Positions 97 through 20,504 of a stretch of 20,504 nucleotides of DNA are shown here, in pieces. Below the pieces are notes generated by a model. The model ran no database searches, was not told the DNA's origin, and saw only the letters and a list, made by a program, of their open reading frames with translations. A program made the position numbers and the translations under genes. The stretch's first letter is position 1. Each line of letters begins with the position of its first letter. Source of the stretch: Candidatus Rifleibacteriota bacterium (lineage in GTDB: Bacteria > Riflebacteria > Ozemobacteria > Ozemobacterales > Ozemobacteraceae); assembly GCA_029560455.1 (NCBI GenBank), contig JAKQKW010000492.1, positions 1 to 20,504 of the forward strand. Direction: 5' to 3'.

Positions 97-630
97 ATGG
101 GGTCGAAAAAGGCTATAACCAGCATCACCGGCGAAGTTTGCACCGGCTCAGCCGTTGCTGAGCTTTTCGGCGTCACAGACCGCACTATTCGGAACTGGCG
201 GGCTGAAGGAATGCCAGAGGCCGCAGATGGAAAATACCGACTCCACGAGTGTTTTGCCTGGTGGCTGGAAAACATCAACAAGCCGTCGAGCGATAAAGAA
301 GAAAAAGCCCGCGAACGCTACTGGCAGGCCAAGGCAAGCAGAGAAGAGCACGCGGTTAAAATCCTGATCGGCGAATCTATCGCCCGCGACCAGGTAGAAA
401 AAGAGTGGTGCGCCAGGTTGATCGAAGTCGTGAGAGGCTTAGAATCACAAATATCAGTTTTTCCCAGCCTGCTTTGCGATAAAACGGCTGAGGAAATTCG
501 CGACCTGGTCGAATCTTATAACAGGAAATTACGCGAAAACTACGCCAGAGACGGGAAATTTACACCGGTAATCAAGAAAGCCCAGCCCAAAAAGCCAGCC
601 AAGAAAAAAAAGGCGGGCAAAAAGAAATGA
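97..630 (+). CDS. Terminase small subunit, lambda Nu1-like
   Basis: This is the DNA-recognition subunit of the packaging motor. It binds phage DNA and recruits the large terminase to start packaging. The 177-residue protein opens with a winged helix-turn-helix (about residues 11-60) with the pattern SAVAELFGVTDRTIRNW…GMP, very like Nu1 of lambda (ADIFG…RTIQNW…GMP). A charged helical middle follows, then a very lysine-rich tail. ATG 97 is chosen because the HTH begins shortly after it; an in-frame TTG at 16 would add an atypical hydrophobic leader and abuts adapter sequence. No clear ribosome-binding site is visible. The stop overlaps the large terminase start (ATGA), so the two are probably coupled. 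Confidence 0.88.
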   Translation: MGSKKAITSITGEVCTGSAVAELFGVTDRTIRNWRAEGMPEAADGKYRLHECFAWWLENINKPSSDKEEKARERYWQAKASREEHAVKILIGESIARDQVEKEWCARLIEVVRGLESQISVFPSLLCDKTAEEIRDLVESYNRKLRENYARDGKFTPVIKKAQPKKPAKKKKAGKKK

Positions 631-2537
631 CCATTTTTTCGGAAGCAGAACTGCAGATCTGGAAACCGGCCGAAGACATTTCTCTCTGGGATTGGCTGGG
701 GAAATATTTTGTTCTTTCAAAAGAATATTCTGACGTTGTGGGCCTTTATCCCCGCGAACTGGTGCCGGTTTTTAAGATTTTGGCCGACTGGCTCGATGAC
801 CCGAAAATCAAAGAGATTTGTTGCCGCAAATCAACACAGATCGGATTGACCACGTTTATTGTCGGCTGGTTTGTTTATAGACAATACAAAAGGCCAGGCC
901 CTGGTATTTTTTGCATGGCAGATCAGGCCACGGCCGAAGAAATGTCAATGCTGCGTTTTAAAAATGCTTTTGAGTCTGCAAAGTGTTTTCAGGGCATTAA
1001 ATCGCAAACTACAAAAAAAGGCACCACGCTAATTACCGGCGGCTCTGTGAAAATGGCGTGGGCGTCATCCATTGCCAGTATCGCATCATCGTCAACCAGA
1101 GATTACGCCGCCGATGAAATAACAAAACCTGGTTATAATCTGAAAACTCAAGAGGGCGAACCGGTCGGCAGGCTGCGATATAGGGCGAAGGGCTTTGACG
1201 ATCGTAAAGGCATAATTACCAGCACGGTCACGATCGAGGGCGACCGAATGCACCAGATCGAAGAAGATGCAGACTGCACATATCTTGTTCACGTGCCTTG
1301 CTCGCATTGCGGCCAGCGCCAGCCGCTTTTCTTTTTTAAAGGCGAAACCTATCTGGCCGCCGACGGAACCACGCAGCCGGGCGGTTATGTTCATTTCGAC
1401 AGCTCACTTGAAAACAAATACGAGCGGGCCAGATCGGCGCGTTATTGCTGCGGCTCTTGCGGCGCGTTGTGGACTACCGAGGAGAAAAACCGGGCAATGC
1501 AGCATTGCAGCGCCCATCCTAACAAACGCGTCGAAATCGAGGGAGAGAAGCGATTTATATGGATATGGCGAATTCATGAGGTCAGATCGGCAGGCTCATT
1601 GTATTCGCTCGTGCTGGAATTTTTGGAGAGCAAAGAAGACCCGGAAAAACTGCAGAACTTCTACAACAACGCCCTTGCCTTATATTTTAAGGAAATTGTC
1701 AAGAAGCCCGACGAGGGATTTATCGCACGCGCAAAGCTGGACTATCAGTCCGGCACCGTGCCAGATGACGCGGTTGCGTTGATTGCAACGGTTGACGTGC
1801 AGAAATACGGCTTCTGGTATGTTATTCGCGCCTGGTCGGCTGCAGAGACAAGCTGGAAGATCGAGCACGGCTTTGTAAGCTCAGAGCAGGAGCTAAATTT
1901 TGTGCTATTCGAAAAAACCTGGGCAAGCAAACACGGGCCTATGGGTATCTGGCGTGTCGGAATAGACACTGGCGGTGGTATGAAAGACAGCGGCGAAACA
2001 TCGACAGAATGGGTATACCGTTGGTATTTCCAGAATCTAAGCCGCGGCGTGCAGATTTTTCTGACAAAAGGTTTCAGCGGCAGCCTGCCAGATAATTTTA
2101 AATTCGGAAAACCGATCTTTACATCTCCAACCGGGAAAAAGCTACCGGCCGGCCTGCGTCTTGTTTTGATCGACACAGACAAAAGTAAAGACCTGTTTTT
2201 CTGGCGAATCAACCAGGCTCAAGAGGAAACCCCGATTTGTGCAGCATACATACCAGCCGATGAAAAGCAGGAGTATTTCCAGCAGCTGCAATCAGAGCAC
2301 AAAGTGAAAGAAGGCACACGGGAAACATGGAAGCAGAAAGGCAGTCAGGATAACCATTTGCTCGACTGCGAGCAGATGCAGATGATTATGGCGTCAAGGC
2401 AGCTCTATGGCGGCGTGTTCATAATTCAGGAGCCGGTCGGCATCATGCAACCGGTGCAGCCAGCGCCAGCAGCGACGAGAGACGAAAACGACGAAGAAGA
2501 ATCGGCAAGATCAAGAGTCAGAAGATGGAGGCGTTAA
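627..2537 (+). CDS. Terminase large subunit, GpA family
   Basis: This is the ATPase and nuclease that cuts concatemeric DNA and pumps it into the prohead through the portal. The 636-residue length is typical of the GpA family (lambda gpA 641). A deviant Walker A-like segment, RKSTQIGLT, lies at about residues 67-75 and the Walker B-like AADEI at 161-165. Cysteine pairs at 225/228 and about 275/278 suggest a metal-binding insertion. The nuclease half shows ATVDVQ (D390), VGIDTGGG (D447) and NHLLDCEQ (D580), the acidic residues expected of an RNase H-fold nuclease. It starts in an ATGA overlap with the small subunit. A GpA-type enzyme usually goes with cos packaging, but no cos site is visible here. 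Confidence 0.95.
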   Translation: MTIFSEAELQIWKPAEDISLWDWLGKYFVLSKEYSDVVGLYPRELVPVFKILADWLDDPKIKEICCRKSTQIGLTTFIVGWFVYRQYKRPGPGIFCMADQATAEEMSMLRFKNAFESAKCFQGIKSQTTKKGTTLITGGSVKMAWASSIASIASSSTRDYAADEITKPGYNLKTQEGEPVGRLRYRAKGFDDRKGIITSTVTIEGDRMHQIEEDADCTYLVHVPCSHCGQRQPLFFFKGETYLAADGTTQPGGYVHFDSSLENKYERARSARYCCGSCGALWTTEEKNRAMQHCSAHPNKRVEIEGEKRFIWIWRIHEVRSAGSLYSLVLEFLESKEDPEKLQNFYNNALALYFKEIVKKPDEGFIARAKLDYQSGTVPDDAVALIATVDVQKYGFWYVIRAWSAAETSWKIEHGFVSSEQELNFVLFEKTWASKHGPMGIWRVGIDTGGGMKDSGETSTEWVYRWYFQNLSRGVQIFLTKGFSGSLPDNFKFGKPIFTSPTGKKLPAGLRLVLIDTDKSKDLFFWRINQAQEETPICAAYIPADEKQEYFQQLQSEHKVKEGTRETWKQKGSQDNHLLDCEQMQMIMASRQLYGGVFIIQEPVGIMQPVQPAPAATRDENDEEESARSRVRRWRR

Positions 2538-2876: not shown

Positions 2877-3095
2877 ATGCCCACGACCGCCCAACTTGAA
2901 GCATATTTAGCGGAATTGTATGCGGCTCGCTCTGCTCTGCTGACCGGCAAAAGCTATGGTATTAACGGCCGAACACTAACCCGCGTCGATGAAACATGGT
3001 TGTCTAACCAGATCAAAGAAGTTGAAAATCAGTTATATCGCCGATCTGGCCATGAAACGTCGGTCAGAGTTGTTTTCGACAGAGGCGGCAGATGA
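2877..3095 (+). CDS. Head-tail joining protein, gpW-like
   Basis: gpW acts late in head assembly. It sits below the portal, helps retain packaged DNA and makes the platform for the next connector. The 72-residue size matches the family (lambda gpW 68). The N-terminal helix AQLEAYLAELYAARSALLTGKS, the short hairpin with NGRTLTRVD, and the second helix NQIKEVENQLYRR reproduce the gpW helix-hairpin-helix layout. GAGG lies just upstream of the ATG. It overlaps the portal start (ATGA), and gpW directly before the portal is the order seen in lambda. Confidence 0.85.
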   Translation: MPTTAQLEAYLAELYAARSALLTGKSYGINGRTLTRVDETWLSNQIKEVENQLYRRSGHETSVRVVFDRGGR

Positions 3096-4591
3096 GCAGA
3101 AAGCCAGAATCAGAAAGCCTTTACAGCAAATTTGCTAGGACGATTGCAAAAGTAGTCGGCCTAGTCAGCCCGTCGTCAGCTGTTAAATACCTTGGTCAAC
3201 ACGCTTGCTTAAGAGCTTATGATGCTGCTGTAATTTCAGGCCACCACAACGAGTTCTGGACGCCCCAGATGAAAACCGGCGATCTTGAAATTGGTCGCGA
3301 CTGGAAAACAGCTGTTGCCAGGTCGCGCGATCTCGACCGCAATCACCCGCTCGTCAACGACGCTTTACGCGTCGGCTTTGCGTTTACCGTTGGCTCTGCC
3401 TTAGACCCACAATGGATAATCACGAAAGACGGCAAACGCGATACCGACAGCATCAGGCAACTTGAAGCAGCGTTCTGGAAATGGGCTGAGGACTGCACCA
3501 TAAACGGCATGCAGTGGGATGATGTCAAGCGGCTGGTGTATCGTCACCTAAAAGTTGACGGCGAGCTGTTTGTCATCGAGTCAGCCGATGAATTTCACCC
3601 GTACAAGCTGCAACTGGTCGAGCCTGACCAGCTCAATGACAGCATCGACGGCGATTTGCGCAACGGAAATTATGCGATACGCGGCATTGAGTTCAACAAG
3701 CGCGGGCGGCCAGTGGCGTATCATTTTTATGAAGCTCATCCGTCAGGCTCCGGCCTGGGCGATAAAACGGTCAGAATCGACGCTCGACGCGTGATACATG
3801 TTTTCCTGCCCGGCAGAATCACTGAAACACGCGGTATCTGTCATTTTGTCAGCGCAATAATGGCGCTTTATGACCAAAATGAACTATCCGACCAGATTCT
3901 GGAATTGCACCGTCTCGCAGCGGCTTACGGCATTTTTATCACGTCACCATCGGCAGAGGCCAACATCATCGGCCTGCCGACATCGCCAGACTCAAGCGGC
4001 AAGCATGTGCCAGTAAAAACCGTCGGCGGCGTCAGGGTAAACTATCTGAACGCAGGCGAAGACCCCAAAACAGTCAACCCTGAAATGCCAACGGGCAGCT
4101 TTTCCGAGTTCGACAAATCGTATCTCAGGAAGGGCGCAAGAGGCTTTTCTATGAGTTATGAAACATTTACCGGGGATTTTTCAAACGCTAATTTCTCGAC
4201 GCTGAAAGCCGGTAATAACAACGAAAGAGCGCTTTTTAGGCTCGACTCAAGTCTAATCATCAGAAAATTTTGCAATCGCGTTGTCAGGAACTGGATGGAT
4301 GCCGAAGTCATTAACGGGCTGCGACTCAAGAATTACTGGCAGAGCCGTGATTATTATCAGCAGTTCCGCTTTACACTGCCAGCCCTGCCCGCAGCGGACG
4401 CGGTAAAAGAAGAAGTGGCCGACGCCAAAGCGCTAGAGAACAAAACGACTACCAGACGCATGATCTGCGAGCGGAAAGGCGTCGATTATGACGAATTAAT
4501 CGAGGAATTACGACAGGAAGAAAAAGATTTAGCTACCGTTATAAATAACGCGGTTGCCGAGTTGGAAAGCGAGGAAAACGATGAACTTTGA
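3092..4591 (+). CDS. Portal protein, lambda gpB family
   Basis: This forms the twelve-subunit ring at one capsid vertex through which DNA enters and leaves. The 499-residue protein resembles lambda-type portals: residues 69-106 carry the family-like RDWKTAVARSRDLDRNHPLV…VGSALDPQ (compare SLRARSRDLVRNNPYA…VGSGIRPQ in relatives). The stretch RVIHVFLPGRITETRGI in the middle is also characteristic. The C-terminal part is charged and helical. It starts within the gpW stop and ends 11 bases inside the protease-capsid gene, consistent with coupling of portal, protease and capsid synthesis. Confidence 0.93.
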   Translation: MSRKPESESLYSKFARTIAKVVGLVSPSSAVKYLGQHACLRAYDAAVISGHHNEFWTPQMKTGDLEIGRDWKTAVARSRDLDRNHPLVNDALRVGFAFTVGSALDPQWIITKDGKRDTDSIRQLEAAFWKWAEDCTINGMQWDDVKRLVYRHLKVDGELFVIESADEFHPYKLQLVEPDQLNDSIDGDLRNGNYAIRGIEFNKRGRPVAYHFYEAHPSGSGLGDKTVRIDARRVIHVFLPGRITETRGICHFVSAIMALYDQNELSDQILELHRLAAAYGIFITSPSAEANIIGLPTSPDSSGKHVPVKTVGGVRVNYLNAGEDPKTVNPEMPTGSFSEFDKSYLRKGARGFSMSYETFTGDFSNANFSTLKAGNNNERALFRLDSSLIIRKFCNRVVRNWMDAEVINGLRLKNYWQSRDYYQQFRFTLPALPAADAVKEEVADAKALENKTTTRRMICERKGVDYDELIEELRQEEKDLATVINNAVAELESEENDEL

Positions 4592-6779
4592 GTTATTTTG
4601 CCGCGCAATGGGCTTGAATCCGGCCATAATGACCGATGCAGAGCGTAAGCACTGGCAAGAAATATACGAAAACTGCGACACGAGAAACGCCCAGATTGAG
4701 AAGGATTCCTTCTGCCGCGTGTTCAAGGTCGGCCCGAAGTCGTTCAACAAAGACGCTAGAACCGTTACAGCAGCAGTATTAACCGATGCCCCGACTTTTA
4801 TGTATGACTGGGAGCGCGGCTGGATAAAAGAGATTCTGCCTATGGAAACCTGCAGAATCCCAGCTCAGATGCCGCTTTGTGATACACACAACACATTTTC
4901 TGTAAAAGCCGTTTTAGGCAGTTGCCGCAACATCAGAGCCGAAAACGTTGGCGGCCAGGGGCAACTGATTGCCGATCTGGTATTTGCACGCGACACAGAC
5001 AGTCAAAACGCCATGGAAAAGGTTGAAGACGGCCATATAACCGACCTGTCTGGCGGTTATCGCGTTTATTCAGCCGTATATGTCGAAGAGGGCGAAACCT
5101 ATGTTTTAAAAAATAAAAGCTATGTCGGCCCGGTAAAAATTGCGCTTGACTGGGAGCCTTCAGAAGGCTCGCTTTGCCCCATCGGCGCCGATCAGTTTTC
5201 GAAAATCAGGGCAAAATCAGCAGATCAGCCCGGCGATAAAAACGGAATAACCAGCGCTCAGAGCGCTGCAGCAACCAGTCAGAGAAGCTCTGACGAAAAC
5301 CCACAGGAGGCTAAGGCCATGAAGAAAACTTTTGAACAGTTCTGCCGCGCTATCGGCACAGAAGCAGCCGCTCTGACAGACGCACAGAGAAGCATGCTTG
5401 AGATCATTTTCGAAGCACAGTGCAAAGAGCTTGCATCTGATGCAGAAATCCCGGCAGACGCCAAAGAACGCGCTGCAAAGGTGATGAAATCGACCAAGGA
5501 AGCCGAAGAACGCGGCGCCAGAGTCGAACTCGAAAGACAGTCGGAAATTCGCGCAATGTGTGCCGTTCCCGGCGCTGAAACCCTTGCCGACAAGCTCATC
5601 AATGACAAAGTCGGCATTGAAGACGCCAGAAAACAGGTGCTTGAACATCTCAGAAGCTCACGCGCTCCAATCAGCACCCCGAAAACCACCATCGAGGGCG
5701 GCGAAACCTCTGGCGAAAAACTTGTCAGAGCTGCTACTCACGGGCTTGCTTTGCGCCACAATATCAAAATCGAAAACCCCGCTGCAGGCGCCAACGAGTT
5801 TCGTGGCCGCTCGCTCATGCGCGTGGTTGAAGAATGTCTGCATGCAATCGGCGTCAACACCAGAAGCCTGAGCGATGACGAAATGATTCAGCGTGCCATG
5901 GCCAGCAGCGACTTCCCGAACATTCTCAGCAACGTCGCCAACCTTCAGCTGAAAATGGCTTATGAAAACAGCGAAGAAACCTGGCGCGACATCGTCGAAA
6001 TCAACAACGACGTCAGCGACTTCAAAGTTATGACCGTTGCCAACTTCGGCGGCGTGCCGGTCTTCTCAGAAGTTCTCGAAGGCGGCGGATATAAAGCCGT
6101 TGATTTCAGAGAAAACGGCGCTACAAACCAGGTTAAAACCTACGGTTGCGAAGCCAAAATGACCCGTCAGATGATCATCAACGATCGGCTCGGCGCTTTC
6201 CTGCGCGCTCTTGAATTGTTCGGCGTTGGCGCTGACAAGCTGATCGGCAACGGCGTCTGGGGAATCATCACCAGCAACCCGAATCTTTCAACCCTCGGCG
6301 ACGGCACTACTAATGCCCTTTTCAGCGCTGCTCACGGCAACCTGATCACCAGCGCCAAAACTCTGAGCAATGACGGTATCGCCGCTATTCGCCTGAAACT
6401 TCGACAGATGAAGGGCCTCAAAACCACTGACAGTATGAATCTGCGTCTGACCAGAATCGCTGTGCCGTCAGAACTGGAAGAACAGGCCCGCATTCTCACT
6501 GAAAACGCCATGATGGTTGTTGACGGTGTTGGCATCAAAAACACTGCTGCCGGGCTGCAGCTCACGGTTGAAGATCGTCTCAGTGCTAACAGCGACGAAA
6601 ACTATTACGGTTTTGCATCGCGCCCGATCATTCAGGTGGCATTCCTGAACGGCCAGCAGCGCCCTGAAATCGTCAGGCTGAACAGCCGCAACCCGGACAT
6701 GTTCGAAGTTATGGCCCGCGTCGATGTGGGCTGGGCACCGATCGAACACAGATACGCCGTCAAAGCCGCTGTCAAATAA
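4581..6779 (+). CDS. Prohead protease-scaffold-major capsid fusion protein
   Basis: One 732-residue chain covers three head functions. Residues about 40-200 look like an S78-family prohead protease: LCDTHN (H103) and ITDLSGGYRV (S157) match the family's catalytic His and Ser contexts. Residues about 205-246 are an Ala/Ser/Gln-rich linker. Residues 247-365 are charged and helical, like a scaffold or delta domain. The rest is an HK97-fold major capsid domain (NFGGVPVFSEVLEGG, ELFGVGADKLIGNGVWG, ending RVDVGWAPIEHRYAV). ATG 4581 has GAGG six bases upstream and is preferred to the TTG at 4554. A 20-residue motif at the N-terminus recurs at residue 251. Fused protease-capsid genes are known; the third catalytic residue was not assigned. 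Confidence 0.88.
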   Translation: MNFELFCRAMGLNPAIMTDAERKHWQEIYENCDTRNAQIEKDSFCRVFKVGPKSFNKDARTVTAAVLTDAPTFMYDWERGWIKEILPMETCRIPAQMPLCDTHNTFSVKAVLGSCRNIRAENVGGQGQLIADLVFARDTDSQNAMEKVEDGHITDLSGGYRVYSAVYVEEGETYVLKNKSYVGPVKIALDWEPSEGSLCPIGADQFSKIRAKSADQPGDKNGITSAQSAAATSQRSSDENPQEAKAMKKTFEQFCRAIGTEAAALTDAQRSMLEIIFEAQCKELASDAEIPADAKERAAKVMKSTKEAEERGARVELERQSEIRAMCAVPGAETLADKLINDKVGIEDARKQVLEHLRSSRAPISTPKTTIEGGETSGEKLVRAATHGLALRHNIKIENPAAGANEFRGRSLMRVVEECLHAIGVNTRSLSDDEMIQRAMASSDFPNILSNVANLQLKMAYENSEETWRDIVEINNDVSDFKVMTVANFGGVPVFSEVLEGGGYKAVDFRENGATNQVKTYGCEAKMTRQMIINDRLGAFLRALELFGVGADKLIGNGVWGIITSNPNLSTLGDGTTNALFSAAHGNLITSAKTLSNDGIAAIRLKLRQMKGLKTTDSMNLRLTRIAVPSELEEQARILTENAMMVVDGVGIKNTAAGLQLTVEDRLSANSDENYYGFASRPIIQVAFLNGQQRPEIVRLNSRNPDMFEVMARVDVGWAPIEHRYAVKAAVK
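4587..4646 (+). repeat. Duplicated 20-residue motif, copy 1
   Basis: Residues 3-22 of the fusion protein (FELFCRAMG…MTDAER) match residues 251-270 at 12 of 20 positions without a gap. Conserved positions are F, E, F, C, R, A, G, A, T, D, A and R. Each copy sits within five residues of a translation start. Confidence 0.75.
5305..5310 (+). promoter_or_regulatory. Internal Shine-Dalgarno site for scaffold-capsid
   Basis: A full AGGAGG lies eight bases before the in-frame ATG at 5319, inside the fusion gene. It is one of the strongest ribosome-binding sites in the window and falls exactly at the boundary between the linker and the scaffold-like region, which argues for real internal initiation. 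Confidence 0.7.
5319..6779 (+). CDS. Nested scaffold-major capsid protein (internal start)
   Basis: Internal initiation at ATG 5319 would give a 486-residue protein: about 118 residues of charged helix (scaffold/delta-like, comparable in size to the 102-residue HK97 delta domain) followed by the major capsid domain. The start begins MKKTFEQFCRAIG, closely resembling the start of the longer protein. By analogy, lambda makes its scaffold Nu3 from an internal start within protease gene C. The sequence shows the ribosome site and start. That this is the main capsid source, with the longer form a minor protease-bearing species, is inference, but capsids need hundreds of shells per few proteases. 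Confidence 0.7.
   Translation: MKKTFEQFCRAIGTEAAALTDAQRSMLEIIFEAQCKELASDAEIPADAKERAAKVMKSTKEAEERGARVELERQSEIRAMCAVPGAETLADKLINDKVGIEDARKQVLEHLRSSRAPISTPKTTIEGGETSGEKLVRAATHGLALRHNIKIENPAAGANEFRGRSLMRVVEECLHAIGVNTRSLSDDEMIQRAMASSDFPNILSNVANLQLKMAYENSEETWRDIVEINNDVSDFKVMTVANFGGVPVFSEVLEGGGYKAVDFRENGATNQVKTYGCEAKMTRQMIINDRLGAFLRALELFGVGADKLIGNGVWGIITSNPNLSTLGDGTTNALFSAAHGNLITSAKTLSNDGIAAIRLKLRQMKGLKTTDSMNLRLTRIAVPSELEEQARILTENAMMVVDGVGIKNTAAGLQLTVEDRLSANSDENYYGFASRPIIQVAFLNGQQRPEIVRLNSRNPDMFEVMARVDVGWAPIEHRYAVKAAVK
5331..5390 (+). repeat. Duplicated 20-residue motif, copy 2
   Basis: Second copy (FEQFCRAIG…LTDAQR), immediately after the internal start at 5319. A looser match continues to a shared Cys about ten residues later in both copies. 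Confidence 0.75.
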
Positions 6780-6828: not shown

Positions 6829-7218
6829 ATGAAGAATCTCAAAATTCAGGCTCTGATGCTTGCCTTCTGCATCTGTTCGATTGTCCTGGCTACCGGTTTT
6901 GCTGACAGCTCAATCGGCGCTGTCGTTACGCGCCCCGGCAGCTCTGGCTTTAAAGCCGTCACAACCCAGAATCTGACCATTGCCACCAGCTCAGCCAGCC
7001 TTATTGGCACGATGCCGCCGAACTGCAGAACAATAACGGTGGTCGCCAAAGATGCAACAATGTATTATGGTGATGCAAATGTGGCCGCTAATGGCCTCTA
7101 TCCGAGTATTGCAGACGGTCAAAGCGTGACTTTCGATAACATCGACACCCGCACCCCGTCCATCTATTTCATCGCCCTGGCAACTGCTACCGGCAAAATC
7201 GGCATCGTTGCCCGGTAA
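6829..7218 (+). CDS. Small capsid-region protein with Sec signal peptide
   Basis: I do not recognise a named family. The 129-residue protein starts with a typical Sec leader: MKNLK, a hydrophobic core (ALMLAFCICSIVLA) and a likely cleavage site GFA|D after residue 25. The remaining ~104 residues look beta-rich and resemble small phage virion beta-sandwich proteins (MPPNCRTITVVAKDATMYYG…YPSIADGQSVTF). AGGAG lies seven bases before the ATG. Between the capsid and the capsid-cement gene, a decoration or head-fibre role would be expected. A secreted leader there is odd because heads assemble in the cytoplasm. Confidence 0.7.
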   Translation: MKNLKIQALMLAFCICSIVLATGFADSSIGAVVTRPGSSGFKAVTTQNLTIATSSASLIGTMPPNCRTITVVAKDATMYYGDANVAANGLYPSIADGQSVTFDNIDTRTPSIYFIALATATGKIGIVAR

Positions 7219-7244: not shown

Positions 7245-7589
7245 ATGCTTAACGTAATTCAGCACGACTCTAAATATTACGACTACACCAACTCCACCGG
7301 TTCAGACATCGCCTCCGGACAGCTCGTCCACATCGGCAATGGCAAAATAGGCGTTGCAATTAACGCAATCCCGAAGGGCTCAAAAGGGGCTCTGCAGATT
7401 GCTGACATAGTTGTCGAATTCCCCAAAGCGGCCGGCAACGAACTTACCGCAGGCAGCTCTGCAGCTATCGGCCCGGACGGCAACACCGTGACCGCCGCCG
7501 TCAGTTCAAGCGTTACCACTATCACCAACGGCTTTGTCTGGGAAACCGCCGCCAGCGCCGCAACAGTGGTAAAATTCGCCCTCGGTTGA
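7245..7589 (+). CDS. Capsid cement / head decoration protein (DUF2190-like)
   Basis: Proteins of this type bind the outside of expanded capsids and stabilise them. The 114-residue sequence matches the DUF2190 pattern: YYDYTNSTGSDIASGQLVHIGN at the start, then GVAINAIPKGSKGALQIADIVVEFPKAAG and AAIGPDGNTVTA, a small beta-barrel with alternating Val/Ile and Gly. It has GGAG nine bases upstream and no signal peptide. Its place straight after the capsid region fits. The stop overlaps the next ATG (TGATG). Confidence 0.8.
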   Translation: MLNVIQHDSKYYDYTNSTGSDIASGQLVHIGNGKIGVAINAIPKGSKGALQIADIVVEFPKAAGNELTAGSSAAIGPDGNTVTAAVSSSVTTITNGFVWETAASAATVVKFALG

Positions 7590-10324: not shown

Positions 10325-10327
10325 CGC

Positions 10328-12768: not shown

Positions 12769-13901
12769 TCAAGGGCGGCACAAGCAGCGCGGGCAAGACG
12801 GGAAACCTGAGAACATCATATTCTCAGCAGTTCATACCGTGCCAGCTTTACTTGATGCCGTCAGAAATGCGGCAGAAGCTGGAGCGCAACGAATCACTAA
12901 CGTTTAACGCGTTTGTTGAAATAGAAAATCTTGCCGGAGACATGATCAGGCTCAATACATGCAGTTATTTCCAAGTTCAAAAACAGTTGTTGGGCGGCAT
13001 AGAGACGGCAAATATTACGATCGAAAAACCTGAGCTGTGGTCAATATGGGGCGACGCTTACATAGAAGTATTGCGGCCGTCAAAGCGGCGCTTGAAAGTT
13101 TTTTCAGGCTTTCCGGGCTATGAAATGCCGATCTACACAGGAAGAATCGTTAGTGTGTTTGAAATACGCGGAAGCGACAATCTCGGAGCTATCAATCTCA
13201 CCTGCAGCGATTATCGCAGCGTATTACGCAAAGAGGAAAGCGACGCAGAAGATTTTGAAGTCAGCAGGTTTTTTGAAATTTATCGCCTGGCTCGCGGCGT
13301 GTTCGACGGAGCTGGTCAGATGTTAATAATATCAGATCGCGATGTTATCGGCGCATTTTTACCAACGGGTGATAATTTGCAAGCCATAAATAATACTCTC
13401 ACGGGGCAGCCGGCATGGTCAATGGGCTCCGGGGCTGTTGTCGTATGCGGCAATCGTCAGCTTGTGGCCGCCGGAGATGTTTTGAAAATCACTGATAAGC
13501 AGATCAATACCGCGACCAGGACTTTTGCTGACTCTAGTGCTTATAACGTCGTGATTGCACGAGGCTTAGACGGTGACGGCAAAATTGCAGAGCAAGAGGT
13601 CAGAGATGACGCTGATATTGCCAAGCGTGGCAGACAGATATATCCGCAAACCGTCGGCGGTGATAACGACTCTTTAGCTGACATGATAATTTTAGCCGGG
13701 GAAATCATTGCGCGGGCGCTGGCTGGCGGGTTCAGCGCTAATATATTGTTTAATCCATATTTGCTGCCCGGCCAGATCGTGAGTTTTCAGAGCACGCGTT
13801 TCGGGATTCCGGCGACGAATGCAAAAATACAGGCCGTGAGGCATCAATACAGGCACGGTAGTTGTTCAACGTCGCTAGATCAACTGGAGCTATTGAGTTG
13901 A
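12765..13901 (+). CDS. Tail tip hub-like protein
   Basis: The 378-residue protein looks like a tail-tip hub component that closes the tube and links it to fibres. After a polar N-terminus (residues 1-35) comes an alternating strand region with ETANITIEKPELWSIWGDAYIEV and YTGRIVSVFEIRG…INLTCSDYRSVL, resembling the beta-barrel repeats of gp27/Tal-type hubs. A later helix DSLADMIILAGEIIARALAGG and the strand NPYLLPGQIVSFQS also fit that fold, where Pro-Gly-x-x-Val/Leu strands recur. The specific role is inferred from order and these patterns. Confidence 0.55.
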   Translation: MIKGGTSSAGKTGNLRTSYSQQFIPCQLYLMPSEMRQKLERNESLTFNAFVEIENLAGDMIRLNTCSYFQVQKQLLGGIETANITIEKPELWSIWGDAYIEVLRPSKRRLKVFSGFPGYEMPIYTGRIVSVFEIRGSDNLGAINLTCSDYRSVLRKEESDAEDFEVSRFFEIYRLARGVFDGAGQMLIISDRDVIGAFLPTGDNLQAINNTLTGQPAWSMGSGAVVVCGNRQLVAAGDVLKITDKQINTATRTFADSSAYNVVIARGLDGDGKIAEQEVRDDADIAKRGRQIYPQTVGGDNDSLADMIILAGEIIARALAGGFSANILFNPYLLPGQIVSFQSTRFGIPATNAKIQAVRHQYRHGSCSTSLDQLELLS

Positions 13902-14866
13902 GGATATACGCAACAATCACAGCTATAGACGCGCCTGAGCCTGGTTTTTATCAGGCTCGGACGGTTTTCGGGCGCAATATTTCCGGCGTTAGTTTGATGG
14001 GCCGTGATGAGCCGTTAAACATCGGTCAACAAGTGCAAGTGTATGAGGTCGGCGGCGAATTCGGCGCCCTGGGCGGTAGTTATCCGTCGTTGCTGTCTAT
14101 GCCTGTATCGCTATTTCCGCAAGCGCCCGCGTCTGTATCGTTGGCATATTTAGCAACACTTGCAGGCAATACCCGCAAAAAATATGCTGTCGGCACAGTG
14201 ACGGGGGTTTATCCTGACGGTCTCGACGTCATGACACCGATCGGCAAGACTCCGAGGATTACCGGCAAAGTATCAGTCGCGCTGATAGCGCCAGATAGAT
14301 TTGGGGTCGATGACAAAGTGTTGATAGATGTATCTGGCAAAAAGCCCGTGGTGCTGGGCTGGTGGAGCCTGACAAATAAACAACAGGATAAGCTCAGAGC
14401 TGTCTTTTTGCATCGACCGGCATTTACCGCACGCGTCGCGCTCTACGAATACGCCCAGGACGCTAAAGGCACGCTAGAGTTGCGGCGCTCTCAGGTATTC
14501 GCGAACAAAAACCTTTTGTCGGTTCGGGCGGTGCTTGGAATTCAGCCAACCACCGACGCCGATGATTATTACTATTGCACCGCTACAATGCAGGATGCAG
14601 CTTTCAACGTGACCGAATTTTATTACTTAGCATTTAGCAAAGACTTCAGGAACGTGCTAGAATTGAGTCAGAGCGAATACCCGCCATCACCCGGCACGCC
14701 ATACAGCAGGACGGCTGACAACAAATTCTGGTGGGCGCGACAGGAAGACGTTTTCTGCTTGCAGTCTGACACGGTAGACGGCGAAAAATATCAAGTATTC
14801 AACGGCCCTTTCGATCAAGAGGGGCAGTGGATGCCGCTAAAGGGGCAAATTTATACAGCGCTATGA
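13898..14866 (+). CDS. Tail tip protein with two OB-fold-like units
   Basis: A 322-residue protein, probably at the tail tip. Residues 1-55 (RIYATITAIDAPEPGFYQARTV…NIGQQVQVYEVGGEFGALG) and about 90-155 (YAVGTVTGVYPDGLDVMTPIG…GVDDKVLIDVSGKKPVVLGWW) share a strand-strand-'G/D-xx-V-x-V' layout like OB-fold spikes. The C-terminal half has aromatic-rich strands (DADDYYYCTATMQDAAFN) and may contact receptor or host surface. I choose TTG 13898, which overlaps the previous TGA, has GGAG eight bases upstream and yields MRIYATI. A TTG at 13862 lies within the preceding gene. Confidence 0.55.
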   Translation: MRIYATITAIDAPEPGFYQARTVFGRNISGVSLMGRDEPLNIGQQVQVYEVGGEFGALGGSYPSLLSMPVSLFPQAPASVSLAYLATLAGNTRKKYAVGTVTGVYPDGLDVMTPIGKTPRITGKVSVALIAPDRFGVDDKVLIDVSGKKPVVLGWWSLTNKQQDKLRAVFLHRPAFTARVALYEYAQDAKGTLELRRSQVFANKNLLSVRAVLGIQPTTDADDYYYCTATMQDAAFNVTEFYYLAFSKDFRNVLELSQSEYPPSPGTPYSRTADNKFWWARQEDVFCLQSDTVDGEKYQVFNGPFDQEGQWMPLKGQIYTAL

Positions 14867-16215
14867 GCAAAGAGAAGCCGGTAAATTTAACATTGGTCAA
14901 TGACCCTCAGCAGATCGTGTTTTCTGGCGCAAATGCAGCGCCTTTAACGCTCACGCTCAGGAATGACGACAACCGCGACGCTAAAAGTGTGTTGATCAAC
15001 GTCGTCAGGGGCGATCTACTCAAAAAAGACGATCTGACGCTATCGCCGGAAGAACTGACCGGCGGCGGGTATAAAGTGGTCGATGAAATGTGGGTTGAGT
15101 GCCGGCTGTCAGAGCTGGACGCATGGCGAGTCGTCGATGAATGGGATATACCGTTTGATCTGGGCGCGTTAAACAAAGGCGATTCAGTCAGTTTTCAGCT
15201 CCGCGTCAATGTGCCGACAAACAGCACTGATGTCGGCCGCATGTGCTTTGCAATTATGATTAGCGCTTCGACAGGCGAAGATGTCAGAGTTAATTCGGTA
15301 ACGATTGATCAGCCCGGTTTTTCTTTGAGCGTTGGAGACTCAACCCAGGCCACAGCAACGGTTGACGCGCAAGTCGGCGCCGACGATAGCGTAGATTGGT
15401 GGTCTGATGCGCCAGATGTGGCAGTAGTTGATGTTGACGGCAACATCGAGGCTATAGCGCCGGGAAAGGGCGTAATTAGAGCCGTTAGTGCTGCAAATTC
15501 TGCAGCTAAAAGCAGTCGTTTCATAGTCGTTGATGATATCCCGGTCGTAAACGATGCTAAAGTCTGGTTTGACGCGCTAGACAACGATACATTGATACAA
15601 TCTGGCGGGAAACTTATACAATGGCTCGACAAATCCGGCTATGGATTTCATGCGAGCCAGGCAAGCGAAACGCTTCAGCCGGTTGTTGTCACTGACTCAG
15701 GCTTCGGAATGCAAGCTGTTTATTTCGACAGAGACTATATGTTAGCTGGCGAGCCGTTGCCAACCGGCAAAATAGATTATACTGTTTTCATTGTAGCACG
15801 CTGCAATAGCAGTTTTCAAAGTTCGTCATTCTTCTCGTTCGGCAGTGTCGACGGATTTACCACTGGGACGTGTTTCGGCCTGCAATCAGTATCCGGGAAC
15901 GTGCTACAGCATTACTACCCAAACAGCGGACTAAATAAGTTATCTGCTGGCCTTTCTGCGCCTCAACTAATAACGATAACAATGAGCGGAAACAACAGAT
16001 CTACGAGACAAAATGGGGTAGAAGTAGCAGCCGATACAGCTTCAGGCTTAAATATATCTGACAGCTTGTTATATCTCGGCGGCAGAGAGCTGAACAAGCC
16101 GACATCAGCCCATCTTGGGGTTATTTGTGAATTCATAGCATACTCAAGATCTTTGACACCGGCGGAAATCGCTCGAAATGAATTTTATTTAATGTCTAAA
16201 TGGGGGTTGAGCTGA
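14863..16215 (+). CDS. Tail adhesin-like protein with BIG2-like and LamG-like domains
   Basis: A 450-residue protein. The first ~145 residues form strands with DDNRDAKSV…SFQLRVNVPTN, like an adaptor. Residues about 150-224 match a BIG2-type Ig-like domain (SDAPDVAVVDVDGNIEAIAPGKGVIRA). Residues about 230-450 look like a concanavalin/LamG sandwich (VWFDALDNDTL…WLDKSGYGFHASQ…YTVFIVARC…FIAYSRSLTPAEIARNEFYL). Both domain types bind or display at cell surfaces, so receptor or glycan binding is likely. ATG 14863 (ATGA overlap) is preferred to GTG 14827, which is inside the previous gene. No signal peptide. Confidence 0.7.
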   Translation: MSKEKPVNLTLVNDPQQIVFSGANAAPLTLTLRNDDNRDAKSVLINVVRGDLLKKDDLTLSPEELTGGGYKVVDEMWVECRLSELDAWRVVDEWDIPFDLGALNKGDSVSFQLRVNVPTNSTDVGRMCFAIMISASTGEDVRVNSVTIDQPGFSLSVGDSTQATATVDAQVGADDSVDWWSDAPDVAVVDVDGNIEAIAPGKGVIRAVSAANSAAKSSRFIVVDDIPVVNDAKVWFDALDNDTLIQSGGKLIQWLDKSGYGFHASQASETLQPVVVTDSGFGMQAVYFDRDYMLAGEPLPTGKIDYTVFIVARCNSSFQSSSFFSFGSVDGFTTGTCFGLQSVSGNVLQHYYPNSGLNKLSAGLSAPQLITITMSGNNRSTRQNGVEVAADTASGLNISDSLLYLGGRELNKPTSAHLGVICEFIAYSRSLTPAEIARNEFYLMSKWGLS

Positions 16216-16553
16216 TGTTTAGTGCACCTGAATTGGATGCTATTATATCCGCCGGAGCGGGCGCGATACCTACGACGGCGCTGTGGGCAGAGATCAGAAC
16301 GCTGTTGAATAACGTCTACGGCGCGGCAGACGGCAGCCAGCAGCTTGCCGGCCCGGACGGTGCTGTCGTGACGATTAACGACGTTAATACCGTCGAATAC
16401 GACGTGTTTTTTTGGATAGAATATGCAGAAGGCGTTCCGGCTGGCTCTACCGGAGAAATCAGAATAGAGATTCTCAGTCAAACCAGCTTTAAAGTCTACA
16501 ACTCCGGCTCTGATACAGAATCAATACTGCACTATCGGGTGGTGCCAAGATGA
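16215..16553 (+). CDS. Small tail-region protein, function unknown
   Basis: A 112-residue acidic protein with no family I recognise. A helical N-terminus (SAPELDAIISAGAGAIPTTALWAEIRTLLNNVYG) is followed by beta strands (VEYDVFFWIEYAEG, TGEIRIEILSQTSFKVYNSG). ATG 16215, in a TGATG overlap with GGGGG eight bases upstream, is a better start than ATG 16200. Between two LamG-type genes it may link or help fold fibre proteins, but this is only context. Confidence 0.55.
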   Translation: MFSAPELDAIISAGAGAIPTTALWAEIRTLLNNVYGAADGSQQLAGPDGAVVTINDVNTVEYDVFFWIEYAEGVPAGSTGEIRIEILSQTSFKVYNSGSDTESILHYRVVPR

Positions 16554-17389
16554 AAAAACTGTTTTTGATTGTGCTTATAATGTGCTGTTCGACCGCATTC
16601 GGGCAATGTGTCGGTCTTGCAGGTGGTCGGATTGGCTTTTCTAAGCCGTTTATAGATACTTCCGTGTTGCCTGACGCATCAACAACCGCTTTGCTACATT
16701 TCGAGAACAATCTGCTCGACCTGGGCGGTGGCACGTGGGCAAGCGCCTGGTCAGGGTTTAGCTCAGATGTTAAAAAGTTCGGGAAATACTCGATATATCA
16801 TCAGACAGCATTTAACACAAACGCATATAGTTTTAGCTCTACGACCGCAACGGCAGCGTTTACGATGGGCAATGATGATTTTACCATAGAATTCTGGGCG
16901 GGTATAAATGTGACGAGAAACAACGTTGGCGGCAACCATGATACAATATTGGCGTTGGGAATAGTGACCGGCGAGACTTTCAACCTGCTTGAAGTCAGCA
17001 ACATATACAACTCAGTGCCGAATAATACGCAATACGTGCCGCGTTTACGACTCAGCACTCATCTCGGGATTCAGTTTTCGGGAACATACACGGGCCACGG
17101 CTTTTTTTCCGGCTTGAACTGGTTCCATATCTGCTTTGAGCGCAGAGGCGGAACACTATACTGTTACGTCAATGGGCAGCAGGTCGCAAGCGGTGCAATG
17201 GGCGCAATTCCAAGCGTGACATCGATTGAGTTTTCGGCATATAATCGCACATATCTGGCCGCCACGTTTTACGTCGATGAACTCAGGGCATACAGAGGTG
17301 GCTACGTCTACGGCGGCGAGTTTACGCCGCCCTCTGAGCCTTTCGGAATCAAGAAAAACAACCGATTAAATTTCAGGGGGGCGCAATGA
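16550..17389 (+). CDS. Secreted LamG/concanavalin-like protein
   Basis: A 279-residue protein with a clear Sec leader (MKKLFLIVLIMCCSTAFG|Q, predicted cleavage after residue 18; the Cys at 20 lacks a lipobox). From about residue 45 it is a LamG-type sandwich: LLHFENNLLDLGGG, FTIEFWAGI, NWFHICFERRGGTLYCYVNGQ and FYVDELRAYRGG are diagnostic pieces in the right order. LamG domains bind carbohydrates or proteins. It lies within the fibre genes, joined by ATGA overlaps on both sides. The leader is unexpected for a virion part; it could be a host-exported surface protein carried by the phage. Confidence 0.78.
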   Translation: MKKLFLIVLIMCCSTAFGQCVGLAGGRIGFSKPFIDTSVLPDASTTALLHFENNLLDLGGGTWASAWSGFSSDVKKFGKYSIYHQTAFNTNAYSFSSTTATAAFTMGNDDFTIEFWAGINVTRNNVGGNHDTILALGIVTGETFNLLEVSNIYNSVPNNTQYVPRLRLSTHLGIQFSGTYTGHGFFSGLNWFHICFERRGGTLYCYVNGQQVASGAMGAIPSVTSIEFSAYNRTYLAATFYVDELRAYRGGYVYGGEFTPPSEPFGIKKNNRLNFRGAQ

Positions 17390-18396
17390 AACAGCGTAAT
17401 AACGCCTATTTGACGACTTTTCTTTTTATCGCGGCATTAGCATCAACGCTTTTACCGCAAAATTACAGCGTGCCATCACCGTTATCGCCTTACGATCTTG
17501 CAATCTGGGCTAATCGCGGCGGGTTTATCGCATCCGGCAGCGCAATACCGACGGAACCAGCGCAGATCGGCGCGTTATACGTCAATGATGACGACCCGGA
17601 CGAGCCGAAAATGTATCGGTATGGCGCTGCTGGCTGGTCTCTTGTCGCTGGCGGAGGAGGAGTGTCGACACACTCGCAACTCTTGGGGCTGGATTTTGCT
17701 ACAAGTGGGCACACGGGCTTTGCGTCTGAGTCAGCAATAAATGAACATATTGCAGATCAGATCGACCCGCACGGCGCGACAATGACAGTCAGCCAAGAAA
17801 TCACGATCGGAGACCCGGAAGCCTCAGCGACAGCGTTTTTAGATAACCCGGCGTCAGGCGTAGCCAGAATTGCAGGCAAATTGATTATAACTGACGAATT
17901 AACCCCGGCAAGCGGCACGATCGAGCCTTACGCGAAATTTCATCGAGTCGCAACGATGACGCTGGCGGACCCTGATACATGGACAGATGTCGAGTGGGAC
18001 ACCGTGCCGGCAGGCGAGACTGGCTTCGGTTTTAAGCTGGTCTCGTCTACGACAATAATGATTGCATCGTCGAGCATGGTGCAGATAGCCGGTTGCTTGC
18101 ATCCGAGGTGGACGGGGGCATCCGGGACGTCGGTAACTATCGCGTCCAGGGTTGTGTATAGTCACGACAACGGCAGCACGTGGACAGAGGCACGCTGCTC
18201 GCAACAAGTGACAAGCCGATCAAATCAAAGCAACGAGGTTGATACGCCGCGATACGGCGGCACAGTTGCGGCAAAAAACGGCACAAAGCTCAAGCTGCAA
18301 ACACGAGTTTCTGATGTTGGCATGGTATTCGCGGGCTGGAACGTGTTCGATAGCCCGATATCAGCTACTATAAACCTTTTCACGACTGGAAATTAA
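17386..18396 (+). CDS. Tail fibre-like protein with signal peptide
   Basis: A 336-residue protein. The N-terminus (KQRNNAYLTTFLFIAALA|S) fits a Sec leader with cleavage near residue 19. The middle has common tail-fibre neck motifs, THSQLLGLDFATSGHTGFAS and HIADQIDPHGAT. The C-terminal ~150 residues (ASSSMVQIAGCLHPRW, TIASRVVYSHDNGSTWTEARC, GTKLKLQTRVSD) look like a C1q/TNF-type sandwich as in fibre tips. Receptor binding is the likely role. A G-rich stretch at 17375-17381 lies before the ATG, which overlaps the previous stop. Confidence 0.7.
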   Translation: MKQRNNAYLTTFLFIAALASTLLPQNYSVPSPLSPYDLAIWANRGGFIASGSAIPTEPAQIGALYVNDDDPDEPKMYRYGAAGWSLVAGGGGVSTHSQLLGLDFATSGHTGFASESAINEHIADQIDPHGATMTVSQEITIGDPEASATAFLDNPASGVARIAGKLIITDELTPASGTIEPYAKFHRVATMTLADPDTWTDVEWDTVPAGETGFGFKLVSSTTIMIASSSMVQIAGCLHPRWTGASGTSVTIASRVVYSHDNGSTWTEARCSQQVTSRSNQSNEVDTPRYGGTVAAKNGTKLKLQTRVSDVGMVFAGWNVFDSPISATINLFTTGN

Positions 18397-18407
18397 CAGG
18401 AGGGCTT

Positions 18408-18983
18408 ATGTATAAACTTTTAAGCGTGCTTTTTTTGTTCGTGATTCTTTTTTCGTCAGTGCCTGCCTTCGCTCAGCGGCCAGTGCAATCACCGTCACAG
18501 CCCAAAATCATGCTCGACGATGGCACATTAGTCGGACACGGCAATCCGATGCCGGTTGACGCAGATGTCAGCATAAGCAGCATAACCGTAGAAGTTTTCC
18601 CGGTTTACGCCGATGATAACGGCAACCCGGCAACGGCAACGGTTGACATCAACCACAGAGCGATAATCAATATTGGCTCTGACAGTATCGGGCTTGTTGA
18701 TGCCGTTAAAGGCGTTGTCACTGAGTGGGCACAACAGACAGTTGCCTTGCCCGCGAACACCAGCACGACAGTTACCAGCGGCATAACTGGAGACCGTGCG
18801 TTTATCGAGATCAAAAGCCACCTACCTAACCAAGTTTTCTGGGTATCAGCCTCTAACAGTGCTGTCGTTGGGGATTGCCGCCCATGCACCGAATATTTTT
18901 ACGCTGAAATACCTGCTGGGGTTGATGTTTCGATCATCGCATCGACCGCAATGGATTTATCAATCGTTGAGGGAGGCCGGTAA
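18408..18983 (+). CDS. Small beta-rich protein with signal peptide
   Basis: A 191-residue protein of no named family. Its Sec leader is textbook: MYK, a long hydrophobic core (LLSVLFLFVILFSSV) and PAFA|Q cleaved after residue 22. The mature part ends in a beta domain of a kind common in phage virions (VALPANTSTTVTSGITGDRAFIEI…FYAEIPAGVDVSIIA), broadly like the mature part of the protein at 6829-7218. A CxxC lies at DCRPCTE. AGGAGGG directly upstream is the strongest ribosome site of the tail-fibre genes. Confidence 0.65.
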   Translation: MYKLLSVLFLFVILFSSVPAFAQRPVQSPSQPKIMLDDGTLVGHGNPMPVDADVSISSITVEVFPVYADDNGNPATATVDINHRAIINIGSDSIGLVDAVKGVVTEWAQQTVALPANTSTTVTSGITGDRAFIEIKSHLPNQVFWVSASNSAVVGDCRPCTEYFYAEIPAGVDVSIIASTAMDLSIVEGGR

Positions 18984-20504
18984 TGAAACGAATCATCGCG
19001 TTAATACTGTGTTTGTCGCTGGTTTGCAGCTACGGCTACAGTCAGCAAAAAATATCTGACGGCTCACGCGACCACGGTGCCGCCCGCAAGAATCTCAGCA
19101 ATGTCGATGCCTCTGCAACGCCATCTATGACATCCATAACCTTGTCGGGCAAAGTCAGAGCAGCCTGGGCTGATATCCTCGGCGATATTTATGCCAGTGG
19201 CACCGTGAAAGTTGGTGCAGGCACCGCAGCCGCGCCAGCTTATACGTTCAGCTCTGACCCTGATACCGGGATTTATTCGCCGGGCGCTGATGTGCTTGGG
19301 TTCGGCGTTGGTGGGGCTGATGTAGCATCATTATCATCAGCCGGACTTAGCCTCGGAACACCCTTGAGCGTAGCCAACGGTGGCACCGGCGCAACCGACG
19401 CGGCAGCAGCGAGAACGAATTTGGGTGTCGCCTATGGCACCACAACGGGCACGGTTTGCCAGGGTAACGACGCTCGGCTCTCAGATGCAAGAACACCTGT
19501 CGCGCATGAGCACAGCGGGGCTGATATTACCTCGGGCACCGTTGCAGACGCGAGGATTGACGCTGCTATTGCAAGAGACTCAGAAGTAACTTCGGCAGTC
19601 TCTGCACACGCCGGTCTGACAGCTTCACATGGAGTCTCAGGGAACATAGTTGGCACCACTGACACCCAGACGCTCACAAACAAAAGCATCTCTGGCGAAC
19701 AGATTAACTCAGGCACGGTTGCCGATGCAAGAATCGACGCAACACTGGCCAGGGATTCTGAGGTCTCAACCGCAGTCTCTACTCACGCCGGTCTGACCGC
19801 TACGCATGGAGCCACCGGGGCTGTTGTTGGAACAACAAATACCCAGACGGTTACCAACAAGACTCTCGACAGCACGAATAGCATCGATGGCGGAGCGATT
19901 AAGACCGGCACCGTTGCAGATGCTCGAATAGACTCTGCAATCTGTCGTGACAGCGAACTGACGACGCACGCCGACCTGACAGCCGCTCATGGCGCGACGG
20001 GTGAGGTTGTAGGAACCACGAACACGCAGACGGTTACCAACAAGACCATGGGATCGGGCTGCTCCTGGGGCGGCACGGCAGTTCCTGTTGCCAACGGTGG
20101 CACCGGGGCAACCACTGCTGCTGAAGGGCTGGCGGCTCTGGGTGGCGCGAGTTTGAACGGTAGTAGCACTGTGGATTTCAACATTAAAAACATTTATGGT
20201 GCCATGAGCAACCAGAGTGCGCCGACATATAGTTTCACTGGCGATACCGACACAGGTGTATACAGCAATGCCCCAAATGTCTTAGGACTTGGAGCCGGCG
20301 GTGTAACTGGTCTTGTTACAAGCGGCGGGAATGTGGCCATTGGTGCGACTCCGTCTACAGACTACAGGCTGCGAATAATCGCGTTTCCTGAAAACTATAG
20401 CGCGCTAGACATAACAAGCCCAAATCCCGCAGTGACAGTCGACGAGACAAACTACAAACGGGGATTGGGTGTTAATAGCATTCTTGCGGATATAGCGACA
20501 GGCG
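18983..20504 (+). CDS. Large repetitive tail fibre protein with signal peptide, partial
   Basis: The frame from ATG 18983 (TAATG overlap) is open for 507 codons and continues past the window. The leader MKRIIALILCLSLVCSYGYS|Q is Sec-like. Two types of fibre motif follow: PAYTFSSDPDTGIYS…VLGFGVGG (residues 85-111, repeated at 414-440) and VANGGTGATDAAAARTNLG (130-148, echoed at 369). Between them are three tandem units (GTVADARID…ARDSEV…HAGLTASHG…TQTxTNK) at 185-356. Such Gly/Thr-rich repeats build trimeric phage fibre shafts; the receptor-binding tip and any chaperone domain would be outside the window. Confidence 0.8.
   Translation, partial: MKRIIALILCLSLVCSYGYSQQKISDGSRDHGAARKNLSNVDASATPSMTSITLSGKVRAAWADILGDIYASGTVKVGAGTAAAPAYTFSSDPDTGIYSPGADVLGFGVGGADVASLSSAGLSLGTPLSVANGGTGATDAAAARTNLGVAYGTTTGTVCQGNDARLSDARTPVAHEHSGADITSGTVADARIDAAIARDSEVTSAVSAHAGLTASHGVSGNIVGTTDTQTLTNKSISGEQINSGTVADARIDATLARDSEVSTAVSTHAGLTATHGATGAVVGTTNTQTVTNKTLDSTNSIDGGAIKTGTVADARIDSAICRDSELTTHADLTAAHGATGEVVGTTNTQTVTNKTMGSGCSWGGTAVPVANGGTGATTAAEGLAALGGASLNGSSTVDFNIKNIYGAMSNQSAPTYSFTGDTDTGVYSNAPNVLGLGAGGVTGLVTSGGNVAIGATPSTDYRLRIIAFPENYSALDITSPNPAVTVDETNYKRGLGVNSILADIATG
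19235..19315 (+). repeat. DTGxYS fibre motif, copy 1
   Basis: 27 residues with the pattern PxYxFxxDxDTGxYSxxxxVLGxGxGG, recurring at 20222-20302, on the other side of the tandem units. Confidence 0.7.
19535..20049 (+). repeat. Three tandem 48-65-residue fibre repeats
   Basis: Units begin at 19535, 19712 and 19907 with GTVADARID and run 59, 65 and a shortened 48 residues. Each carries HAxLTAxHG and VGTTxTQTxTNK. The DNA is also alike in the last two units near their ends (CAGACGGTTACCAACAAGAC), which may favour recombination that changes fibre length. Confidence 0.8.
20222..20302 (+). repeat. DTGxYS fibre motif, copy 2
   Basis: Second copy of the PxYxFxxDxDTGxYSxxxxVLGxGxGG pattern, so the fibre has a motif-repeat-motif layout before the window ends. 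Confidence 0.7.

Follow-up and report, generated by a model that had tools for sequence, protein, structure and literature searches.

Five of the 24 genes in the window, the 20,504-nucleotide stretch of DNA analysed here, were called as carrying Sec-type leaders by a rule-based scorer, and judging from their sequences the products very probably pass through the inner membrane and have the leader removed. In the window lies the late operon of a tailed phage, with its packaging, head and tail genes. Our preferred reading, held with middling confidence, is that the leader-bearing products are accessory surface proteins which are exported by Sec and are added to the particles from the side of the envelope, at lysis or later.

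The leader genes and their operon

The operon encodes on the plus strand the terminase small subunit (100..630, phrog_57), a GpA-type terminase large subunit (627..2537, phrog_15), the portal protein (3092..4591, phrog_21), a fusion of prohead protease and major capsid protein (4554..6779, phrog_4523) and a cement or head decoration protein without leader (7245..7589; PF09956, phrog_122). A structural-type protein with Big_2 and LamG-like parts (14827..16215, plus strand), also without leader, is encoded two genes upstream of the leader cluster. Gene 4554-6779 had no relative among viral contigs, and 12765-13901 had none among viral contigs or annotated phages. A Riflebacteria-like host is plausible for the window phage, but the GC content of the window is 0.511 versus 0.35-0.43 across five measured phage loci of the Riflebacteria phylum, and terminase relatives at 34-35% are also present in Desulfobacterium and Deltaproteobacteria MAGs.

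The scorer was home-made, with a threshold of 28, and detected six of seven known leaders, missing one. It was applied to 24 frames chosen from the ORF list, of which 7586-7771 is doubtful. An earlier sequence-only reading had ascribed Sec-type leaders to four genes at the tail end, and all four were called. The first (16550..17389, plus strand, 279 aa) has the leader MKKLFLIVLIMCCSTAFG, with its predicted cut before Q. The second (17386..18396, plus strand, 336 aa), with a predicted cut between ALA and S, has the weakest leader. The third (18408..18983, plus strand, 191 aa) has a leader ending in SVPAFA before Q, and the fourth (18983..20503, plus strand), which has at least 507 aa and runs off the window, has one ending in SYGYS before Q. 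These genes are consecutive on the same strand, overlapping or in near-contact, and each leader starts with a basic n-region, continues with 15-19 uncharged residues and ends at a predicted small-residue cleavage site. To these we add a fifth gene (6829..7218, plus strand), encoding a small protein of 129 aa and flanked by the protease-capsid gene and the cement gene; its leader is MKNLKIQALMLAFCICSIVLATGFA, with a predicted cut before DSS (VLATGFA before D). All five present the predicted features of Sec and signal peptidase I substrates (a positive n-region, a hydrophobic core of 8-16 residues and small residues at -3/-1), 17386 weakly. Scores were 31.0 for 17386, 44.0-50.1 for the three other tail-end leaders and 45.9 for 6829.

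Among the genes downstream of terminase in 41 relatives, 11 of 356 were leader-positive, in a set which leaves out L026 and L057 and includes some near-copy records. At this background rate, four leader genes in succession would have a probability of about 2 in 100,000, assuming independent calls. As controls, 14 of 5080 internal 45-mers from window proteins were called as leaders, and shuffling of residues 2-40 gave calls in 4 to 62 of 500 depending on the gene.

The LamG, fibre-neck and repeat motifs previously ascribed to all four mature parts held for two of them. The mature part of 16550 carries a Laminin_G_3 or concanavalin-like domain (PF13385, E 2.8e-06, 28 bits with a cut-off of 27.6), and 18983 carries phage tail-fibre repeats, matching phrog_21962 (tail protein, E 2.5e-12) and further tail families. 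With fibre repeats or a LamG domain within the tail-end cluster, these two are candidate fibre or receptor-binding proteins. For 17386, Pfam and PHROG profile searches gave no family above its cut-off, and the sole PHROG match of 18408 was weak (E 0.0016). Residues 88-117 of 17386, a fibre-type motif, match a 689-aa leader-bearing protein of a Riflebacteria-phylum prophage, and the structure model of 18408 predicts a C-terminal jelly-roll-like beta domain at about residues 101-190 (block pLDDT 82-94). A PDB sequence search gave no convincing match.

Persistence and gain of the leader

All 14 homologues found for 6829 retain the leader, as do all 14 aligned with 18408 (16/16 and 15/15 alignment rows, respectively), although leader identity among them drops to about 14%. 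Simulated neutral drift at 30% identity left a surviving leader in 191 of 2000 runs for 6829 and 167 of 2000 for 18408. As far as the alignments can tell, the leader of these two genes is conserved functionally and not at the sequence level; homologues lacking these N-termini, which the sequence-only reading had named as evidence against itself, were not encountered for either gene.

For 16550 the evidence leans against conservation, its LamG relatives being mostly without leader. Such relatives were found at 22 viral loci and the gene under the match was leader-called at only one, L017, a doubtful call because the hydrophobic core lies far from the start. Most share the LamG domain alone; the match at L002 spans residues 28-279. 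Gene 18983 matches 99 phage records, all from Mycobacterium or Gordonia phages, each covering at most 21% of the query among the matches listed. For 17386 the viral contigs gave one matching stretch and no distinct locus, and the annotated phages gave none. Neither 17386 nor 18983 yielded a full-length homologue. Neither 6829 nor 18408 had relatives among annotated phages, and a viral scan using the 18408 alignment returned zero matches. Two candidate relatives of 18408 were rejected, namely its lone viral locus L001, as a chance match, and a 198-aa leader protein of G012.

Among the relatives, two phage structural-module families carry the leader as an N-terminal add-on which is absent elsewhere. 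One of them, the phrog_22694-type family, includes Hiyaa gp9 and proteins of Bradyrhizobium and Microcystis phages and resembles the mature parts of L057:15233, L168, L096, L110, L120 and L143. The three annotated phage members compared are without leader, whereas the leader-bearing members are relatives lying outside the window. Residues 29-188 of one such relative, L057:15233, align with positions 6-169 of 170 of the phrog_22694 profile (E 4.8e-30), and removal of the leader at the predicted cut in L057, L168 and L096 would recreate the N-terminus of the leaderless homologues. Searched with this family's alignment, 39 genomes of the G002 phylum gave one match, G002 itself, with two copies both bearing a leader, and 297 genomes of the G041 phylum gave one (G191) in a 173-residue frame too short for a leader. 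An early mixed alignment gave no match in the 297 genomes, a set without a positive control. The treatment of A4 and A5 as a single family was rejected, their similarity being confined to the leader.

A genome of the Riflebacteria phylum contains a Mu-like prophage, apparently complete, whose head module includes one leader gene and whose tail end has three consecutive ones; by the predicted leaders its layout is the same as that of the window. The leader as a trait of the whole host phylum was rejected, the head-tail stretches of G020/G021, G034 and G035 having been read as without leader genes. Set aside in this reading were two calls past the tail genes in G021, of 90 and 135 aa and lysis-like on visual inspection, a reverse-strand frame of 60 aa in G020, and a call (score 29.5) in a 1005-aa frame in G035. 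The best tree, built by a quick method and with L057 on a long branch, has three changes of leader label (4 of 500 shuffles were as low), and its strongly supported branches require only one. Repeated gain of the leader among the relatives is likely on this tree.

Proposed routes from export to the particle

In the textbook view tailed phages assemble in the cytoplasm. The conflict of exported fibre-type proteins with such assembly, for which the sequence-only reading knew no standard phage model, still stands. Of the four possibilities it offered, display on the envelope or addition from it fits best, because relatives bear the leader as an extra on structural-module families which lack it in other phages, and because internal starts give no leaderless form. 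In the 20 leader genes checked, the sole internal start that has a ribosome-binding motif and might yield such a form is doubtful and lies past the leader, and dual isoforms are accordingly not supported. A domesticated particle is unsupported, as the operon here is an ordinary packaging-head-tail one and a relative is a Mu-like prophage that appears to be complete.

Under addition from the envelope, capsid and tail would be assembled in the cytoplasm from leaderless genes, while the exported proteins would fold in the periplasm, attach to particles from the side of the envelope, at lysis or later, and act there as decoration, lectin or fibre parts. On this reading the products of the leader genes would be incorporated into virions. 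A possible benefit is that sticky lectin and fibre domains would be held apart from the assembling particles; alternatively, extracytoplasmic folding may itself be the benefit. More tentatively, we propose that some tailed phages have a further assembly line outside the cytoplasm, acquired on more than one occasion, among lambda-like and Mu-like phages, in which decoration, lectin and fibre proteins would be Sec-exported, processed in the envelope and fitted on exiting particles. There are hints that some tailed phages draw outer-surface parts from the cell envelope and not from the cell interior. Should some phages export structural-module proteins, then the building of their particles and their host-range parts would rely on host envelope machinery, annotation that classes signal-peptide proteins as non-virion would overlook components of the particle, and the folding of phage lectins outside the cytoplasm would become testable.

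A credible though lesser possibility is that the five proteins are exported and are not virion parts, but work at the cell surface or outside the cell as adhesins or in receptor masking or superinfection exclusion, being products of late expression of the tail operon. Binding to surfaces is a property of LamG and fibre domains, and T5 Llp is a role analogue of the superinfection-exclusion type. The leader evidence is identical under this reading (five of five called, conserved under drift in 6829 and 18408). Moreover, export of phage genes from the tail-fibre region has a precedent in lambda Lom, which has an N-terminal signal peptide and a gene between the tail-spike and tail-fibre genes (PMC12309495). 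The window leader genes resemble Lom in signal peptide and in gene position in the tail-fibre region of a tailed phage, but Lom is one membrane barrel, whereas the window holds five unlike proteins, one of the head region, none with a match to an outer-membrane barrel family (Pfam, PHROG). The Ail/Lom family, which Pfam includes, was likewise absent from all five in a Pfam search, and the lipobox motif, [LVI][ASTVI][GAS]C, whose cysteine directly follows the leader in phage exclusion lipoproteins of the Llp/Cor type, was found at the predicted cut in none of them, which also speaks against purely exported effectors. Nor does such a role predict that two families with leaders in relatives occur in other phages as structural-module proteins without one, and 6829, flanked by the capsid and cement genes, is distant from the fibre region.

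It is improbable that the hydrophobic N-terminus stays uncleaved and serves, whether on the particle or in the inner membrane, as a membrane anchor or a membrane-active peptide. Both structure models have predicted N-terminal helices, of low to middling confidence, as such an anchor would have; however, the core lengths resemble those of signal peptides, every aligned homologue keeps the full leader pattern and a permissible cut despite drift of the core, and the predicted cut in L057, L168 and L096 would leave the leaderless N-terminus described above. Free drift of the leader sequence, with the whole pattern persisting, argues against the earlier suggestion that virions retain the leader. 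That ordinary hydrophobic N-termini with no role in export were scored as leaders is very improbable, for despite the weak 17386 and the one known leader in seven missed by the scorer, 28 of 28 aligned database homologues in two families were called, set against the background of 11/356.

No report of leaders on structural-module or fibre proteins of tailed phages was found among the results listed by literature searches in a library holding few subscription papers and no bioRxiv preprints. The endolysin of UFJF_PfDIW6 and the fOg44 lysin are likewise late tailed-phage proteins with a Sec-type leader, but they are cell-wall enzymes, whereas the domains of the window proteins are of structural-module, lectin or fibre type. 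In filamentous phages the coat proteins are virion proteins synthesised with Sec leaders, and these phages are assembled in the membrane; the window phage differs in being tailed, with terminase, portal and prohead protease. The modelled mature domains may have the broad jelly-roll fold of decoration, turret and spike proteins (PM2 spike P1, the HFTV1 turret and KHP40 cement).

Leader genes of the late operon

The window, 20.5 kb long, corresponds to the late operon of a tailed phage. Its genes encode the terminase subunits, a portal, a prohead protease-capsid fusion and a cement protein, followed by the genes of the tail region and a cluster at the tail end; the terminase shares at most 35% identity with the loci found. 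Sec-type leaders were called with a rule-based scorer which looks for a net positive n-region, an uncharged core of 8-16 residues and small residues at -3/-1, and which passes six of seven known laboratory leaders. Among the 24 window genes, which are frames selected from the ORF list, five were called. Four of them are the consecutive tail-end genes starting at 16550, 17386, 18408 and 18983, as the sequence-only reading had claimed, and the fifth, in the head region (6829-7218), had been overlooked by it. The weakest leader is that of 17386. By the same scorer the terminase, portal, protease-capsid, cement and middle tail-region genes have none. The background rate was 11 in 356 forward-strand genes located 3' of the terminase in 41 relatives, several of them near-copies and the set being without the leader-rich contigs L026 and L057; of the internal 45-mers of the window's proteins, 14 of 5080 passed. 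Ribosome-binding motifs are present at the starts of 6829, 18408 and 18983, and none was found by the motif list used at those of 16550 and 17386. The observation holds, extends beyond what was first reported, and is conserved in the families for which full-length homologues could be compared.

The prohead protease and major capsid protein form a single frame of 741 aa (4554-6779), and long matches of this kind also occur in Bordetella and Shewanella phages.

Conservation and probable acquisition of the leaders

Full-length homologues were collected for two of the five window leader proteins, 6829 (n = 14) and 18408 (n = 15). The 6829 alignment has 16 rows (window, 14 homologues and L057:11538) and that of 18408 has 15 (window and 14 homologues, P0016 being excluded). 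The leader was called in every row (16/16 and 15/15), so that, against the refuting condition, no aligned homologue of these two families lacks such an N-terminus. The mature parts of the 14 homologues of 6829 are 63-98% identical to the window protein, with leader identity as low as 15%; in the 18408 family leader identity falls as low as 14%. When codon drift of the window leaders was simulated down to 30% identity the call survived in 191 and 167 of 2000 trials. The call persists in all natural rows, unlike in most random-drift trials, so selection maintains the leader property in these families while leaving its letters free to change. The 18408 family also presents several dissimilar N-terminal segments on one C-terminal domain, each starting with a leader. 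The evidence for 16550 points in the opposite direction: at 21 of the 22 viral loci with a LamG relative the scorer called no leader beneath the match, and the single call is doubtful.

In other families the leader looks like an addition. The contig L057, of phage origin and part of a Candidatus Riflebacteria MAG (G002), carries three genes with leaders in its head-tail module; one of these, 15233-15802, is a member of phrog_22694, the family likeness starting at residue 29. The relatives of this gene in Streptomyces phage Hiyaa (two genes after the capsid gene), in a Bradyrhizobium prophage (between capsid and head-tail adaptor genes) and in Microcystis phage Mae-JY04 (between a putative prohead protease and the head-tail adaptor) have no leader. 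In L057, in L168 (another phage contig of that MAG) and in three viral contigs that share one N-terminus (L096, L097 and L098), the leader stops precisely at the A of M-ALT, the start of the leaderless form, and in L057 and L096 the scorer's cut falls there too. A scan for this family kept the best 80 of 321 viral loci, a ranking that favours likeness to L057, and six of the 80 bear a leader (L096, L097, L098, L110, L120 and L143, the last counted after its start was located); the 80 include four over-long frames (L107, L117, L135 and L150) that do not count towards the six. On the best tree of 46 members, leader columns excluded, the leader label changes three times, and the well-supported branches require only one change. 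At L149:34-540 a leader-bearing gene of 168 aa lies immediately 5' of a leaderless member of this family.

The pattern recurs in a second family, represented by L026:9335-9685, whose leaderless counterparts are 87-aa proteins of Mesorhizobium phage Lo5R7ANS and Rhizobium phage RHph_I20. Within the structural module of the 42.8 kb contig L026 four genes are called as leader genes, of which one may encode a lipoprotein. Between leader genes of this module lies a 214-aa frame (9700-10344) that we take to resemble an alpha/beta hydrolase, with a lipase-like motif.

Possible fate of the exported products

Exported phage proteins are already known, namely endolysins (PMC8951688, PMC12571629) and Lom, encoded in the tail-fibre region of lambda (PMC12309495). 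The literature searches, as far as their hits were listed, brought up no paper recognised as describing leaders on structural-module or fibre proteins of tailed phages.

Internal starts were found in only one doubtful case among 20 leader genes checked, and this scarcity suggests that all copies carry the leader, in which case the products would leave the cytoplasm. Particles would still be built inside the cell, since the terminase, portal, protease-capsid, cement and middle tail-region genes are leaderless. The exported products may then dock onto the particles from the envelope side, at lysis or later. We infer both this docking and incorporation into the virion; envelope-side docking is the simplest way of reconciling structural-module identity with export, and we give it an even chance. 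Alternatively, the products might never become part of the particle and would act at the cell surface by coating or blocking it; this is the main rival reading, somewhat less likely, and it would equally begin with export.

Similar layouts in Riflebacteria-phylum genomes

Among 39 genomes of the G002 phylum, three matched the 6829 alignment at E up to 0.01, one of the matches being weak and within a 2170-residue frame. The matched genomes include G012, whose contig C109 holds an apparently complete Mu-like prophage (about 8,300-40,100; L171, L167, L170) with Mu transposase, Mu portal and capsid; its right flank, the side read, carries FeoB and other cellular genes. The head module of this prophage encodes a 142-aa leader protein of 6829 type, assigned by eye (the scorer misses it, with an aspartate near the cut), and at its tail end stand three consecutive genes with leaders (689, 198 and 503 aa), the product of the first sharing with 17386 a fibre-type stretch of 30 residues at 57% identity. 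The 198-aa protein was considered as a relative of 18408 and ruled out by sequence comparison. Locus L169 (G022) has two leader genes, one matching the 18408 alignment; a 236-aa leader protein (L169:3058-3768, reverse complement, G022:C153) adjoins the leader-bearing 18408 relative.

In the prophages of G020/G021, G034 and G035 the head-tail stretches read contain no leader genes, bar a near-threshold call (29.5) in G035, the tail ends being partly covered, as the G020 contig stops in the tape-measure gene and that of G034 soon after the tail genes. Beyond the tail genes of G021 there are two leader calls (90 and 135 aa), which look like lysis genes. L072:1-2446 (G021:C170, a prophage of this phylum) carries two stretches with WWLRAVASS in common, NFANVNNNGNANNNGASN coming after one of them, and behind the pair a 434-aa frame; the pattern looks like a diversity-generating retroelement plus its target gene.
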